Assembly: GCA_021325295.1 (NCBI GenBank)
Contig: JAJPHM010000018.1
Location: 1 to 64,000, forward strand
Source of the DNA: Nitrososphaeraceae archaeon
GTDB lineage: Archaea > Thermoproteota > Nitrososphaeria > Nitrososphaerales > Nitrososphaeraceae
Direction of reading: 5' to 3'
DNA length: 64,000 nucleotides
Shown here: piece by piece, positions 52,545 to 60,772 of the stretch
Numbering within the stretch: position 1 is the stretch's first letter
Layout: the number at the start of each line of letters is the position of its first letter
Notes under the pieces: model-generated
Seen by the model: only the letters and a program-made list of their open reading frames with translations
Database searches by the model: none
What the model was told of the DNA's origin: nothing
Translations under genes and position numbers: made by a program

Positions 52545-54341
52545 TCACTCTGCCTCGGATTCATGCGAATGGAGTCTTCTCAACGCCTCATGCATCTGGT
52601 CCCGAAACAGAGTCAGCCCTATCCTTCCTGCATATGGCTGGCCTCTGGCCAGCGACTCTGCCATGTGGCTGACAAACTCCATGCTTACCTTTGGTGGCAT
52701 TGGTGGCTCAAACGGGTCAACATAGGCTTCAACCAGAACCGGCCTTTTCTTCTCCGCCATCGCCATGCGCATAATAGATTTGACCTCGTCAGGCTCCCTT
52801 ATTGAGTATCCTTTTCCGCCGCAGGCATCGGCAAACTTTGCATAATCTATTGGCGAGAACTCTATTGCATATTCCGGATTTCCCAGAAATGCCATCTGTT
52901 CCCACCGTATCATGCCAAGTGAATTGTTCTTGACTATTATCACCTTGATTGGCAGGCCATACTGTACTGCAGTTGAAAATTCTGCCATGAGCATGTTGAA
53001 TCCGCCGTCGCCGACAAATGCAACGCACTGTCTATCAGGGTATGCAATCTGCGCAGCTATGGCATATGGAAGGCCATTTGCCATGGTTGCAAGGGTCCCG
53101 GATAGCGAAAATTTCATGCCCTTTCTGAGGTTGATATGCTGAGCGGCCCAGACAGTATTCGTTCCTGAATCGGCAGAGATTATTGCATTATCTTCAAGCT
53201 CTTCCGAGACAGCGGCTGCTATGACCTGTGGTTTGATAGGCTTGTCTCTGCGTGTGCTCCGCTCCCTCATCAACTCAAGCCAGCCTTTCATCCCCTCCTG
53301 CTTTGATTTCAAAAAGCTATTGTCTCCCTTTCTCTGCAGCAGCGGAAGCAGGGCAGAGAGCGTAAGCCTTGCGTCTCCCACCAAGCCCACTTCAACAGGA
53401 TACCGCAGACCTATCTTGTCAGGCCGGATATCAATCTGTACGCCTCTTGCCTGACCTGGCCGCGGTAGGTATTCAATGTAAGGAAATGAAGTTCCTACCA
53501 TAAGCAGAGTGTCTGCATCGGCCATTGCATCAGTAGCTGGTGCCGTTCCAAGCAATCCCAGTCCGCCAATGCAATATGGATTGTCGTCCGGCACAACTGC
53601 CTTGCCCAGAAGTGCCTTTATAACTGGCGCCTGCAGGGCCTCGGCTGCTGCTACCACTTCATCTCCTGCACCTAATGCACCCTGCCCCACAAGCATCACG
53701 ACTTGGTGGCCAGAATTCAAGATATCAGCAGCCTTTTGCAGCATAGCTCCATCAGGAACCACTGCACTGGCAAAAACGTCCGACGTATGCCCGGCAACCT
53801 TGTGCCTCGAGTATCTGCCTTTCAACTTTTCCTCCTGTACATTTATGGGTATAGTCAGGTGACTAACTCCCCTTCTCGCAATAGCTGTCCTGCAGGCGAC
53901 ATCGACTGCCATCTCTGCCTGCTCCGGCTCGCTTATCATGCTATTGTATACTGCAACATCAGAATACAGCTGGAGCAGGTTGACGTCCTGCTGGTAATCA
54001 GAATTCATAAGGTCGGAATATGTAGTGCCGGTGATGGCAATTACTGGCGTATTGTCAAGCTTGGCATCGTATAGGCCATTTAAAAGATGAATCGCTCCCG
54101 GGCCTGATGTGGCGACACATGCACCCAGTTTGCCTGTGTATTTGGAGTAGGCTGTGGCCATAAAGGCCGCCGATTCTTCATGTCTTACCAGAACAAACCT
54201 GATCCTGTCCTTTCTTTTCCTGAGGGCCTCAATAAAACCATTGATACCGTCCCCCGGCAAGCCGAATATGCACTCTATCCCCCAGTCCAGAAGCGCTTCT
54301 GCAACTATATCAGCCGTCCTGAGGTTCTCGTATTCGTCCAT
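52545..54341 (-). CDS. Thiamine pyrophosphate-dependent enzyme (pyruvate oxidase/acetolactate synthase-like)
   Basis: TPP-enzyme with three domains: PYR (RTADIVAEALLDWGIECIFGLPGDG, with the cofactor-activating Glu in RHEESAAFMATAYSK), middle, and PP (VAFVGDGGFNMLMAEF with the GDG Mg-TPP motif, followed by VIIVKNNSLGMI). PoxB-like enzymes and acetolactate synthases are not separable here by motif; PoxB's C-terminal membrane helix is not evident. Start ATG 54341 preferred over 54386. Confidence 0.85.
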   Translation of the reverse strand: MDEYENLRTADIVAEALLDWGIECIFGLPGDGINGFIEALRKRKDRIRFVLVRHEESAAFMATAYSKYTGKLGACVATSGPGAIHLLNGLYDAKLDNTPVIAITGTTYSDLMNSDYQQDVNLLQLYSDVAVYNSMISEPEQAEMAVDVACRTAIARRGVSHLTIPINVQEEKLKGRYSRHKVAGHTSDVFASAVVPDGAMLQKAADILNSGHQVVMLVGQGALGAGDEVVAAAEALQAPVIKALLGKAVVPDDNPYCIGGLGLLGTAPATDAMADADTLLMVGTSFPYIEYLPRPGQARGVQIDIRPDKIGLRYPVEVGLVGDARLTLSALLPLLQRKGDNSFLKSKQEGMKGWLELMRERSTRRDKPIKPQVIAAAVSEELEDNAIISADSGTNTVWAAQHINLRKGMKFSLSGTLATMANGLPYAIAAQIAYPDRQCVAFVGDGGFNMLMAEFSTAVQYGLPIKVIIVKNNSLGMIRWEQMAFLGNPEYAIEFSPIDYAKFADACGGKGYSIREPDEVKSIMRMAMAEKKRPVLVEAYVDPFEPPMPPKVSMEFVSHMAESLARGQPYAGRIGLTLFRDQMHEALRRLHSHESEAE

Positions 54342-54498
54342 AAATGGAATACACACTGATAGCATAAGTGGGTTATAACTTGACATAGGTCAGGCTGTGG
54401 CCTATACAATATTCTACGTCATCAGCATGCAAGACAATTTTCTCCTCTCCACTGTCACAGCAGGAGCACTGCAATTAGCCAGTCGGTCAGTCAGTTAG

Positions 54499-54810
54499 TT
54501 ATCCTATCAACTTGTTTATTGTTCTGGCAAGCTTTACGTCGTAGTTACTTACTGCGCCACCAATATCATGTGTTACAAGATCTATTGTTACCTTGTTGTA
54601 AACGTTGCACCACTCCGGATGGTGGTTCATTTTCTCTGCTTCCATAGCTACTCTGGTCATAAAGCTAAATGCCTGAACAAAGTTGTCAAACTCAATTGTC
54701 CGGTTCAGTTTGCCCTTTACGATATGCCACCCTTTGAGTTTGGAAACCTCGTCTTCAATTTCTTTTTTTGACAGCTTGCGATATTCTTCCTCTTCTTCGT
54801 TGCTTCCCAT
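54499..54810 (-). CDS. Pterin-4a-carbinolamine dehydratase
   Basis: Dehydrates 4a-hydroxytetrahydropterins. The family signature is exact: [21 protein letters not shown] (His-His-Pro-Glu-Trp), with LKGWHI at the N-terminus. 103 aa. It occurs in archaea without phenylalanine hydroxylase, where it may serve molybdopterin chemistry; that is inference. Confidence 0.92.
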
Positions 54811-56684: not shown

Positions 56685-57671
56685 TCATATCCACTCAAAC
56701 TGCACAGGAATGTAGACCTTTTTTCTGGCATCTTCCAGGCTGCTCCGCTCAATTATCAGGCCCTGGGACTTGAGCTCTTCTACGGCACTCTGTATGGTCC
56801 TCCTTGGCAGGTTGGTCAGGTTCATAAGCTCGACCTGATCTATCGGGTGCTTTGACTTCATGACAAAGTAGACAAACTTGGCCCCCGGGCTCCCCTCAGG
56901 ATTTTTGCTAAGATGAGAGACGCTAAAGGCCGCCTTTGTAGGAAAGCCTCTCCGCAGCGACTCAACTGACGATACAGCCTCAACCCTGACCTCGGCTAGG
57001 TTTGTCCGCTGGCCAAATTCTGCAATCAGTGCAGATTGTTGCGACTCTAGTGGCGCCTCAAAGATAAAAGTGCTGGGGGGAAACTTGGCTGTAAGGGCGC
57101 CGACAAAGTTCCATCGGACAGAGCCTTTCTCGTCATATATGCCGACATTTATCCCCTCATTTGCCTCCAGCACCACTTTGTCTGACCCTAGCTTGACACC
57201 CTCTTCAATCTTTGACAGGAGAGTATCGAGCTGCAGCTGATGCCTTGGGTCCTTTTTCCCTACCTTCCATTGAAAATCAAGTCTCTTTGCCAGTATACTT
57301 TCGGTAATCTTTTTCTTTTGCTCAAAGTTCAGGTCCGCGCTGTTTTCACCAACCTCAATTATGTCAAAGCCCACCTTTGCAGCTTCGCCAAGGAACTTGT
57401 CAAAGTCATCTTCAGCTATCATGTATTCAGAGATTGTGCTTCCGGTTGAGACTTTGATGTCAAAGTTATGATAGAACTTGATCTTTTTCTTGAGAGTATC
57501 CTCAGAGATAAGAAGCGGAAGAACGCCATATATTTTGACTACGTCAATAAATGGAGCAATGGTCTCAAAGTTTTCCCTGTCCAGGCCCTCAAGCTTGTCG
57601 ATTATGTATGTGCGCCCCTCGCTCCTTGGCTTTTTGACATCTACCCTGTTTTTGGCGTACTCCTCTAGCAA
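56685..57671 (-). CDS. ComA-like protein fused to a C-terminal winged helix (candidate sulfonate-sensing regulator)
   Basis: Residues 1-255 match phosphosulfolactate synthase (ComA; PEP plus sulfite, CoM pathway): an N-terminal strand region, VSTGSTISEY, WKVGKKDP (136-142) and IFEAPLESQQSALIAEFG (203-220). Residues about 265-328 form a winged helix (HPIDQVELMNLTNLPRRTIQ...SQGLIIERS). Relative to ComA as I remember it, the FVKFGWGTSAL loop reads VVKIYGVLPLL and EGRESG reads EANEGI, so catalytic or substrate residues differ. It is divergent from a sulfonate-type ABC transporter and the intervening DNA is full of palindromic motifs. Ammonia oxidisers do not make CoM. I infer a ligand-binding transcription factor. 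TTG start. Confidence 0.8.
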   Translation of the reverse strand: MLEEYAKNRVDVKKPRSEGRTYIIDKLEGLDRENFETIAPFIDVVKIYGVLPLLISEDTLKKKIKFYHNFDIKVSTGSTISEYMIAEDDFDKFLGEAAKVGFDIIEVGENSADLNFEQKKKITESILAKRLDFQWKVGKKDPRHQLQLDTLLSKIEEGVKLGSDKVVLEANEGINVGIYDEKGSVRWNFVGALTAKFPPSTFIFEAPLESQQSALIAEFGQRTNLAEVRVEAVSSVESLRRGFPTKAAFSVSHLSKNPEGSPGAKFVYFVMKSKHPIDQVELMNLTNLPRRTIQSAVEELKSQGLIIERSSLEDARKKVYIPVQFEWI

Positions 57672-57739
57672 TTTTAGATAGTTATATGCAGATTTGACGC
57701 ATATTTTGAACTTTCGGAAGATGCATAATCAGCCAAGGT

Positions 57740-57787
57740 GATGCAAAAATTGGTATATTTCTGCATGCAAAATGCATTTTTTGCATC
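57740..57787. promoter_or_regulatory. Repeated ATGCAAAA motifs (candidate operator)
   Basis: Between the divergent comA-like and ABC genes, GATGCAAAAA (57740-57749) and its exact complement TTTTTGCATC (57778-57787) form a 10-bp inverted repeat. A third ATGCAAAA lies between (57765-57772), 24 nt after the first, and an overlapping AAAATGCAT follows. The arrangement fits a cooperative dimer operator for the fused regulator. Confidence 0.6.
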
Positions 57788-57815
57788 TATCAGATAGATA
57801 TTATCTCTGCGGGCC

Positions 57816-58892
57816 ATGCAGATACATATGAATAACAAGATCAAGCTTGGAATTGCTGCAGCCATTATTGCCGCAGTCATTGCCTCGTCTATTGTCTCTC
57901 TTCAGACAAAAGCACCGCTACCTGCTGCCAGCAACGCTGCGGCAGGTGAACAAAAAGTGCTCAGGGTAGGCTACTTTCTTAACATAAACCATGCCCAGGC
58001 AGTCATCGGGCTTGGCAATGGAGACTTTCAAAAGGCTTTGGGAGGCGTGCAGGTCCAGACTCAGGTCTTCAACGCAGGACCATCTGCTATCGAAGCTTTG
58101 ATTGCGAACCAGATTGATGTAGCATATGTTGGACCAAATCCTGCAATCAACGGATACATCAAGTCAAATGGCGAAGCGCTGAGGATTATCTCCGGTGCAG
58201 CCAGCGGTGGTGCTGTGTTTGTTGTCAGAAACGATTCTGGAATCGCTTCGGTAAATGACTTTGCAGGCAAGACATTTGCCTCGCCTCAGCTTGGAAATAC
58301 TCAGGATGTAGCGCTGCGGCAATACTTGCTTGAAAACGGATACAAGACCAAAGAAAATGGAGGGACAGTTACAGTGCTGCCGGCGGCAAATCCGGATATA
58401 GTTACTTTGATGATAAAAAAGCAGATAGATGGTGCATGGGTTCCAGAGCCATGGGGTGCCAAACTGGTCAAGGAAGCAGGTGCAAGAATTTTTGTTGACG
58501 AGAGAACTTTGTGGCCCAACGGCGAGTTTACGACAGCTGTAATTGTTGCCAGGACTGACTATCTCAATAACAATCCGGACACCATAAAAAAGCTGATTGA
58601 GGCCCACGTCAACGAGACAGAGTGGATCAACAGCAACCCTTCAATGGCCAACAGTGAATTCAATACCCAGCTGAAAAATCTAAGCGGCAAGACAATCCCA
58701 GAAGATGAGTTGAGCGCAGGATTCTCAAGGCTAAAGCTTACCTATGATCCATCCAAAGATTCGCTGCTCAAAATGGCAGACAGTGCTTACAAGCTGGGGT
58801 ATCTTGACAAAGAGCCTGATTTGTCTGGAATATACGACCTCAGAATACTGAATCAGGTGCTTGCAGAGCGTGGCCTCCAAGAAATAAAGTAA
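57816..58892 (+). CDS. ABC transporter substrate-binding protein, sulfonate/taurine/nitrate type
   Basis: Periplasmic-type binding protein (SsuA/TauA/NrtA family, NMT1-like fold). N-terminal signal-anchor helix (LGIAAAIIAAVIASSIVSL); then VLRVGYFLNINHAQAVIGLG, ALIANQIDVAYVGPNPAI and the hinge DIVTLMIKKQIDGAWVPEPWG. The ligand is not fixed by sequence; aliphatic sulfonate or taurine fits the ComA-like neighbour. ATG 57828 is an alternative start. First gene of the transporter operon, after the candidate operator. Confidence 0.88.
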   Translation: MQIHMNNKIKLGIAAAIIAAVIASSIVSLQTKAPLPAASNAAAGEQKVLRVGYFLNINHAQAVIGLGNGDFQKALGGVQVQTQVFNAGPSAIEALIANQIDVAYVGPNPAINGYIKSNGEALRIISGAASGGAVFVVRNDSGIASVNDFAGKTFASPQLGNTQDVALRQYLLENGYKTKENGGTVTVLPAANPDIVTLMIKKQIDGAWVPEPWGAKLVKEAGARIFVDERTLWPNGEFTTAVIVARTDYLNNNPDTIKKLIEAHVNETEWINSNPSMANSEFNTQLKNLSGKTIPEDELSAGFSRLKLTYDPSKDSLLKMADSAYKLGYLDKEPDLSGIYDLRILNQVLAERGLQEIK

Positions 58893-58905
58893 TGTGTGCC
58901 AACCA

Positions 58906-59025
58906 ATGACAGGAATAGACACGAGGTGGGACGAGATCGGGTTCTCGGTCGAGGAGGTAGACAATATGCAAAAACTGCGCCAAAACTGCAAAACCTGCAT
59001 CTTTGAATCACATTATATCAGGTAA
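58906..59025 (+). CDS. 39-aa CxxC microprotein inside the transporter operon
   Basis: A 39-codon ATG frame lies 13 nt after the binding-protein stop and 24 nt before the ATPase start. It encodes an acidic N-terminal half (MTGIDTRWDEIGFSVEEVDN) and a C-terminal RQNCKTCIFESHYIR with one CxxC and a His. The tight spacing suggests a genuine cistron; a Zn-, metal- or thiol-binding regulatory subunit is possible. Not recognised as a known family. Confidence 0.5.
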   Translation: MTGIDTRWDEIGFSVEEVDNMQKLRQNCKTCIFESHYIR

Positions 59026-59049
59026 GCATCATAGCAACAAGGGATAGAT

Positions 59050-59940
59050 ATGGCTCTGACTGATTCTCAATACGAAGGTTATCAGGAAAAGGAGCATGAG
59101 CAGGATCTCGATAATGACAGTGATATAATCAGCAGCACTCCCATTGTTCAGGTCAAGCAAGTATTCAAGTCGTTTGGTTACAATAGCAATAGCAGCAGTA
59201 GCAGAAGCAGGTCAGGTTCCAAGCCATCCCATGAAGTGCTCTCAGGGGTAGATATAACAATAAACAGAGGCGAGTTCATAACCATTGTTGGCCCTTCAGG
59301 CTGCGGCAAGAGCACGCTTCTTAATATTATCGCCGGGCTTGACAAGCCTGATTCAGGGGACGTTTCTGCACGAGCAAATGATGGTCTATCGACTGTGCGC
59401 GGCATAATGATATTTCAGGAAGGCGCCTTATTTCCTTGGCTCAGTGTGCAGGAAAATGTTGAATTTGGGTTAAAGATTGCAAATATCCCAAAGCACGAGA
59501 GGACCAAAATAGCCAGCAGATATATCGAACTGGTTGGCCTGACCAAGTTTTCAAGATACTTTGTCCACCAGCTGTCAGGAGGTATGAAACAGAGGGTTGC
59601 CATAGCCCGCGCACTTGCAATGGAACCAGAGATCCTTCTCATGGACGAGCCATTTGCGGCACTTGACGTACATACAAGGGAGATGCTTTACGAAGAGCTT
59701 GTAGGAATTCACAAGACGACCAACAAGACAATACTGTTTGTCACTCACAACATCAACGAGGCATTACTGCTAGGCGACAGGGTACTGGTCATGTCTGCTG
59801 CGCTCAGGAACATAAGAAAGGAGTTTGCAATTGATCTTGCCCGCCCAAGAGATCTTGAAAGTCCAGAACTGTACGAGCTAAAGAGGCAGATTCTGGTCGA
59901 GCTGGAAGGAGATCTGCAACAAGTTGCTAGCAGAAGATGA
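59050..59940 (+). CDS. ABC transporter ATP-binding protein, SsuB/TauB type
   Basis: ATPase of the nitrate/sulfonate/taurine family. Walker A GPSGCGKST (81-89), signature LSGGMKQR, Walker B LLMDEPFAALD, and switch FVTHNINEALLLGDRV. A 20-residue Ser/Arg/Asn insertion (about 44-60, encoded by AGC/AGT repeats) splits the first strand region; a charged N-terminal extension precedes it. It ends overlapping the permease start by 17 nt. Confidence 0.92.
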   Translation: MALTDSQYEGYQEKEHEQDLDNDSDIISSTPIVQVKQVFKSFGYNSNSSSSRSRSGSKPSHEVLSGVDITINRGEFITIVGPSGCGKSTLLNIIAGLDKPDSGDVSARANDGLSTVRGIMIFQEGALFPWLSVQENVEFGLKIANIPKHERTKIASRYIELVGLTKFSRYFVHQLSGGMKQRVAIARALAMEPEILLMDEPFAALDVHTREMLYEELVGIHKTTNKTILFVTHNINEALLLGDRVLVMSAALRNIRKEFAIDLARPRDLESPELYELKRQILVELEGDLQQVASRR

Positions 59941-60772
59941 CCACAGGCAGGATTCTATACAGGCCGGCAGGACAGACACCCAGCACGGCCGCAGCATTGA
60001 CACCAATGACGCTGCAAATATTGTCCTGTTTCTGGCAGCGTTTCTTGGCCTGTGGCAGCTTGTAGTTGCACTACACATATTGCCAGATACTCTCTTCCCA
60101 TCCCCTGCATCTACTGCAGCCTCAATTGGCAAGCTTGTTGCCAATGGATCGCTTGTAATAGGAATTCTCACGACTTTGTGGAGGCTTGTTGCAGGGTTTG
60201 CAATTTCCATCGTTATTGGCGGCGCAGTTGGTTTGGCAATGGTAAAGTTCAGGGCGTTTGGCAAGACAATGAGCTCTTTTGCAGTGGGGCTCTTGACCTT
60301 CCCCAGCATAGCATGGGTTCCCTTTTCCATACTGTTGATTGGCTTTAACGACTTTGGGATACTGTTTGTAGTTGTAATGGCATCTGTATTTTCGGTAATG
60401 ATCTCCACATATAGTGCGATAAGAAATGTTCCGCCTATCTATTTTCTGGCTGCCAGGAACATGAACGCGAAAGGTATGGCTCTGTTCAGGCACGTAATGA
60501 TTCCTGCCGCTACGCCTTCGCTTATCGTTGGTATAAGGCAGGCATGGTCATTTGCCTGGCATGCGCTGATAGGGGCTGAGATGCTCATTACAACACTTTA
60601 TGGTCTGGGTCATATATTGAGTGTTGGACGTGAATTTATCGATATGAACCAGATTGTGGCTGTCATGATTACAATCTTTTGCATAGGCTTGCTTTTTGAC
60701 AGAATAATTTTCCTCAGGATGGAAGAAAAAGTGAGGACAAAGTGGGGCCTCAACCAGCACAGCGGCGAATAA
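59924..60772 (+). CDS. ABC transporter permease, SsuC/TauC type
   Basis: Inner-membrane permease with about six helices. The BPD_transp_1 signature (EAA-like loop) is visible in AARNMNAKGMALFRHVMIPAATPSLIVGIRQAWSF (a coupling helix, about residues 177-210). N-terminal 35 residues are a polar cytoplasmic tail. TTG start overlaps the ATPase gene. Operon: binding protein, microprotein, ATPase, permease. Confidence 0.9.
   Translation: MLAEDDHRQDSIQAGRTDTQHGRSIDTNDAANIVLFLAAFLGLWQLVVALHILPDTLFPSPASTAASIGKLVANGSLVIGILTTLWRLVAGFAISIVIGGAVGLAMVKFRAFGKTMSSFAVGLLTFPSIAWVPFSILLIGFNDFGILFVVVMASVFSVMISTYSAIRNVPPIYFLAARNMNAKGMALFRHVMIPAATPSLIVGIRQAWSFAWHALIGAEMLITTLYGLGHILSVGREFIDMNQIVAVMITIFCIGLLFDRIIFLRMEEKVRTKWGLNQHSGE

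Follow-up and report, generated by a model that had tools for sequence, protein, structure and literature searches.

A ComA-like barrel fused to a winged helix: a candidate regulator of sulfur assimilation in archaea

A Fusion Gene Divergent from a Sulfonate-Type Transporter

The window analyzed here is a 64,000-nucleotide stretch of a Nitrososphaeraceae genome (contig JAJPHM010000018.1), in which a gene for a 328-aa protein diverges from three genes for a sulfonate-type (Ssu) ABC transporter. The protein joins a barrel related to ComA, the phosphosulfolactate synthase, to a C-terminal winged helix-turn-helix (wHTH) domain. The genes and domains are the following:

56685..57671, minus strand: ComA-wHTH fusion gene, 328 aa, proposed sulfur-assimilation regulator (open reading frame, Pfam and TIGR profile matches, AlphaFold)
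56943..57635, minus strand: ComA-like TIM-barrel domain (residues 13-243), proposed sensor (PF02679, 1.2e-65; Foldseek match to 1qwg)
56700..56888, minus strand: wHTH domain (residues 262-324; AlphaFold, and matches of the isolated domain to MarR-family structures)
56766..56804, minus strand: recognition helix (residues 290-302, in the LPRRTxQ motif; conservation in the fusion set)
57816..58892, plus strand: ssuA, sulfonate-type substrate-binding protein, the genome's only SsuA_fam match (TIGR01728)
59050..59940, plus strand: ssuB, ABC transporter ATPase (profile matches)
59924..60772, plus strand: ssuC, ABC transporter permease (profile matches)

The fusion reading frame comprises 328 codons on the minus strand, from a TTG start at 57671 to a stop codon ending at 56685, and its start position is kept in relatives. 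With a PF02679 score of 221.8 bits against a gathering score of 25.2, the protein belongs to the ComA superfamily; both strings by which the initial annotation had recognized a ComA homolog, WKVGKKDP and IFEAPLESQQ, are present. The transporter was also read correctly: SsuA exceeds the curated subfamily cut-off of TIGR01728 (214.9 versus 163.5 bits), and the ATPase and permease assignments are supported by profile matches. The genome holds a single PF02679 match and a single SsuA_fam match, and the two genes adjoin. The initial annotation's premise that ammonia-oxidizing archaea lack the CoM pathway was probed here only through this single PF02679 match. No TauD was found in the genome, and none of its luciferase-family proteins is clearly SsuD, which leaves it uncertain what becomes of an imported sulfonate. 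N. viennensis grew no better with taurine in the conditions tried (PMC4129164), and the compound transported is therefore uncertain as well. Elsewhere in the window, a ThDP-dependent enzyme (TPP_enzyme N/M/C) at 52545-54386 is followed by a pterin-4a-carbinolamine dehydratase at 54499-54810; a small gene of the latter type also adjoins the fusion locus in several relatives.

The winged helix, likewise proposed in the initial annotation, is supported by structure prediction. AlphaFold places three helices (262-273, 279-286, and 290-302) and a wing (strands 306-310 and 318-322) behind a confident barrel (mean pLDDT 85), and the best PDB matches of the isolated C-terminal domain in Foldseek are MarR-family regulators, some of them in DNA complexes. 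Residues 267-326, approximately, match the MarR_2, TrmB, and HTH models below the curated Pfam cut-offs, whereas the basal relatives L237 and L199 exceed those of HTH_11, HTH_24, HTH_IclR, TrmB, and HTH_5. If fold plus family match defines a MarR-type wHTH, the window protein qualifies through AlphaFold and Foldseek, with sub-threshold Pfam support. It is not a member of the MarR family proper, since the model shows a single wHTH behind the barrel without the MarR dimerization helices around it. Among 22 fusions compared, L288, R290, R291, T292, and Q294 are invariant, and the mean majority fraction is somewhat higher in the wHTH (0.70) than in the ComA domain (0.65), reaching 0.75 in the recognition helix.

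Distribution and Gene Neighborhood

The class was sampled with 400 genomes, 73 of which carry PF02679. The DNA around most of these matches yielded 75 fusion genes and, set apart from them, 14 shorter proteins that lack close similarity to the fusions; Thermoplasmata fusions were added by one profile search of genome contigs. Of the 75 fusions, 46 have an Ssu gene no more than two genes away; these span 13 genera, in arrangements that vary from divergent to downstream of ssuABC or inside the operon. Absence of a conserved association with the transporter had been set beforehand as a condition that would refute the regulatory proposal, and the check did not refute it. The 29 fusions without an Ssu gene at this distance include some on truncated contigs and others of a second paralog clade with different neighbors. 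This Nitrosocosmicus-type clade (L058, L066, L086, L089, L090, L093, L095, L097, and L100) has conserved neighbors that include, by appearance, glyoxalase-, SRPBCC-, and uracil-DNA-glycosylase-like genes.

Other sulfur genes take the place of ssu in more distant relatives. Seven MAGs of Thermoplasmata have the fusion in divergent orientation to genes for PAPS reductase (PF01507) and ATP sulfurylase (PF01747), that is, cysH-sat; exceptions in this group are L187, where it is not divergent from cysH-sat, and L205, where it is cut by its contig. In the Nitrososphaerales relative L088, the gene divergent from the fusion is sat, and the gene run that contains sat also includes cysC, for an APS kinase. 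In L096 the divergent gene belongs to PF03601 (YeiH-type), and in G679 a PF04143 (Sulf_transp) sulfur transport gene is found close to the fusion. The Thermoplasmata linkage to cysH-sat widens the likely role of the fusion from organosulfur uptake to sulfur assimilation.

Two further gene groups were encountered. Many fusions (L043, L048, L065, L073, L083, L098, L104, L109, and others) have rhodanese-type sulfurtransferase genes (PF00581) within several kb, and rhodanese/metallo-beta-lactamase proteins adjoin ssuA in L059, L063, L070, and L079; as operator-linked targets they were set aside, the site scores near fusions being too weak for such a claim. A separate ComA-like family of about 280-300 aa has no wHTH and carries the motif DGYKFAGGSMRL / EVSxMIGAGAGTH (L034, L036, L039, L042, L047, L049, L050, L052, L055, L057, and L075). 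In several lineages of the class it adjoins a gene for a protein of about 458 aa that resembles MmgE/PrpD by eye and was not scanned.

A Putative Operator at the Fusion and ssu Promoters

Alignment of the upstream DNA of relatives revealed a 23-bp palindrome with the consensus ATATATGCARA-N-TYTGCATATAT, which had escaped the initial annotation. In the window, the predicted sites, for which no binding data exist, are:

57682..57704, no strand assigned: operator 1 (predicted), TTATATGCAGATTTGACGCATAT, ending 10 bp before the fusion start codon (palindrome, alignment, matrix)
57762..57786, no strand assigned: cluster of TGCAT repeats, TGCATGCAAAATGCATTTTTTGCAT, before ssuA, a possible second recognition element (alignment of seven relatives, no statistics)
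58982..59004, no strand assigned: operator-like site 2, AAAACTGCAAAACCTGCATCTTT, 68 bp before the ssuB start (matrix score 13.9)

Operator 1 contains a perfect inverted repeat, ATATGC-N9-GCATAT (57684-57704), the sole perfect copy in the 2.69-Mb genome. The TGCAT cluster is partly conserved in the seven relatives aligned.

Upstream DNA was available for 71 fusion genes. A score of at least 16 of 22 on ATATATGCARANTYTGCATATAT is reached in 36 of these upstream regions, compared with about 2 after shuffling; of these 36 sites, 31 begin between -29 and -36 relative to the fusion gene. With a matrix built from 25 distinct sites, scores of at least 15 occur at 31/71 fusion genes and at 0/564 other genes of the same loci; the counts for the 71 loci include the training sites of the matrix, so that the fusion count is partly in-sample. 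An out-of-sample comparison is offered by those ssuA and ssuB genes that have a promoter separate from that of the fusion gene. At a matrix score of at least 10, sites precede 11/32 ssuA, 11/27 ssuB, and 1/39 ssuC genes, against 10/438 controls (Fisher p 5e-9 for ssuA), and many of the ssuA and ssuB sites sit near -80. The p-value is optimistic because the loci are related by descent; the hits nonetheless span several genera. Site 2, at 13.9, may be compared with the 4 of 438 control genes that reach at least 12. One criterion for a one-component sulfur regulator, a conserved operator at target promoters, is fulfilled by these sites.

These promoter data bear on an alternative in which the protein is an ordinary enzyme with a structural C-terminal winged helix and its gene stands beside the transporter through metabolic association only. 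Winged helices can be non-DNA-binding, and the ComA homology is strong. Such an enzyme is nevertheless hard to reconcile with the conserved recognition helix, the MarR-type fold matches, and a palindrome common to the fusion's own, ssuA, and ssuB promoters, and this alternative is considered very improbable.

The reach of the predicted operator appears limited. Relaxed searches of the window's own genome gave only weak sites elsewhere and no strong site before its cysH-sat cluster; a genome-wide regulon was rejected on these grounds, and the regulon of the window looks local because that cluster lacks a strong site. A luciferase-family gene about 5 kb downstream was not counted as a target: its only site is weak, lies 250 bp upstream, and falls within a short ORF. 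The Thermoplasmata cysH-fusion intergenic regions showed no operator in common. In the deep-clade loci L031, L032, and L033, a conserved TAACGCCGTTAT-type palindrome stands upstream of the fusion in place of the ATATGC operator.

Retention and Loss of the ComA Active Site

Scores against the ComA equivalog model TIGR03849 fall stepwise, from 310-316 bits in homologs without a wHTH to 228-241 in deep fusions, 166.5 in the window protein, and 70 in the L083 paralog. Measured by the motifs FGWGTS, YPGGT, VGKK, and EGRESG, the window protein does not qualify as a member of the phosphosulfolactate synthase equivalog: VGKK is kept and the other three are changed. Relative to M. jannaschii ComA, the replacements of FGWGT by IYGVL and EGRESG by EANEGI given in the initial annotation are both exact, and YPGGT has become STGST. 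Across the fusions, the conserved Lys/Glu positions of ComA are largely kept and the substrate-type loops are altered; FGWGTS and YPGGT are affected, and EGRESG in the Nitrososphaeraceae clade.

This pattern raises the question of a trigger enzyme, that is, a protein that retains PEP plus sulfite (or related PEP) catalysis in addition to regulation, its activity state setting DNA binding. Nine positions of M. jannaschii ComA (K43, E79, E103, K137, E168, E205, Q211, Q212, and R240) are kept in at least 93% of fusions, and the deep and Thermoplasmata fusions keep IGWG and EGRESG/EGRETG loops, which speaks for such a protein. However, every fusion tested, including the window protein, falls below the TIGR03849 cut-off of 280, which the homologs without an HTH exceed, and the window protein no longer has FGWGTS or EGRESG. 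Two paralogs (L083:10166-11155 and L115:2752-3744) have lost nearly all ComA motifs and still keep the wHTH, an ATATGC-N9-GCATAT-type site, and ssu neighbors. They represent natural cases of a sensor without an enzyme, sensing itself being inferred, and a trigger enzyme is accordingly judged unlikely. An unrooted ComA-domain tree places the fusions together on one side of a well-supported (100/97) branch, as a single fusion event would allow. With its active site lost by degrees, the family is a good case for studying the conversion of an enzyme to a sensor.

Proposed Mechanism and Significance

The 328-aa protein is probably a one-component regulator of sulfur assimilation, with the ComA barrel as its sensor and the wHTH binding the 23-bp palindrome. 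Its domain architecture, genome linkage, and operator are well supported; in vitro binding, the sign of regulation, and the ligand are inferred in the absence of binding, expression, or ligand data. The proposal in the initial annotation that an enzyme scaffold was recruited as a sensor-regulator of sulfonate uptake is supported by the conserved ssu linkage and the operator joining the fusion to the ssuA and ssuB promoters, and remains unsettled with respect to ligand, DNA binding, and loss of catalysis.

In the proposed mechanism, a ComA barrel, whose enzyme relatives bind PEP and sulfite, would have been fused once in archaea to a MarR-type winged helix and thereby become a sensor. A signal bound in the barrel would alter the grip of the wHTH on the palindrome. 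In front of the fusion gene itself, about 10 bp separate the site from the start codon, and the TATA box of a transcript with a short leader would be covered, which suggests autorepression; at ssuA and ssuB, a site near -80 would lie upstream of the likely TATA box, a placement that suits activation. Transcription starts are unmapped, and both signs are guesses. ComA is reportedly a trimer with active sites between subunits, according to the paper on the 1qwg structure, and it is left open how an oligomer of this kind could recognize a palindrome with two-fold symmetry.

The likeliest signal may be sulfite, possibly together with PEP or as the adduct of the two. Desulfonation of sulfonates and assimilation of sulfate would both produce sulfite, and it is a plausible common denominator because it is inferred to link the ssu, cysH-sat, and YeiH contexts and is a ComA substrate. 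A regulator that senses something else, such as PEP or another phosphorylated acid, an intact sulfonate, sulfate, or APS, would be found in the same genome context, and the altered Nitrososphaeraceae loops could mean changed specificity. Bacterial analogs use varied ligands, with Cbl responding to APS and CysB to N-acetylserine. No other single metabolite is inferred to unite the three contexts with the ComA reaction, however, and a different ligand is regarded as a real but lesser possibility. With sulfite retained as the preferred signal, the fusions can be described, tentatively and at somewhat below even confidence, as an undescribed, widespread archaeal transcription factor family in which ComA turned into a sulfite sensor. 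Such a family would govern sulfonate uptake in ammonia oxidizers and, in Thermoplasmata, the assimilation of sulfate, and its living members would span the range from a near-complete active site to a fully degenerate sensor.

To our knowledge, few sulfur-assimilation regulators are known in archaea. The fusion is a concrete candidate for one, present in Thermoplasmata and in ammonia oxidizers abundant in soil, and it comes with predictions of its operator, targets, and ligand class. It also calls for caution in annotation, as genes labeled phosphosulfolactate synthase in non-methanogens need not imply coenzyme M synthesis.

Comparison with Known Systems

No ComA-wHTH or other ComA-based regulator was found in the literature searched, the coverage of which was partial, and novelty is judged within that coverage. 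Regulators that combine an enzyme-related domain with an HTH and control a related pathway are known. For example, the archaeal ThiN-HTH regulators (ThiR) have this design, with a different enzyme scaffold and a different pathway from the ComA-wHTH fusion. The ROK-type CysR of Corynebacterium glutamicum follows the same principle on another scaffold than ComA (PMC2580772).

The bacterial regulators YeiE, CysB, and Cbl resemble the fusion in its proposed role in sulfonate uptake, sulfate assimilation, or sulfite resistance, and in its proposed autoregulation. Salmonella YeiE, for instance, binds sulfite, is autoregulated, and controls yeiH, whose product confers sulfite resistance in that organism (PMC12880088). 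These proteins are nonetheless unrelated to the fusion, having a LysR fold and an N-terminal HTH instead of a ComA barrel and a C-terminal wHTH. The MarR/SlyA family shares the wHTH fold and a palindromic operator, but the fusion lacks the dimerization helices of MarR and its sensor is a separate barrel. With ComA itself (PF02679; M. jannaschii, 1qwg), the window protein shares the TIM barrel (Foldseek E 5.8e-21, 33% identity over the Foldseek alignment, TM 0.85 when scaled to target length) and most of the conserved charged positions; it differs from ComA in the added C-terminal wHTH, the changed FGWGTS, EGRESG, and YPGGT motifs, and a score of 166.5 bits against the cut-off of 280.
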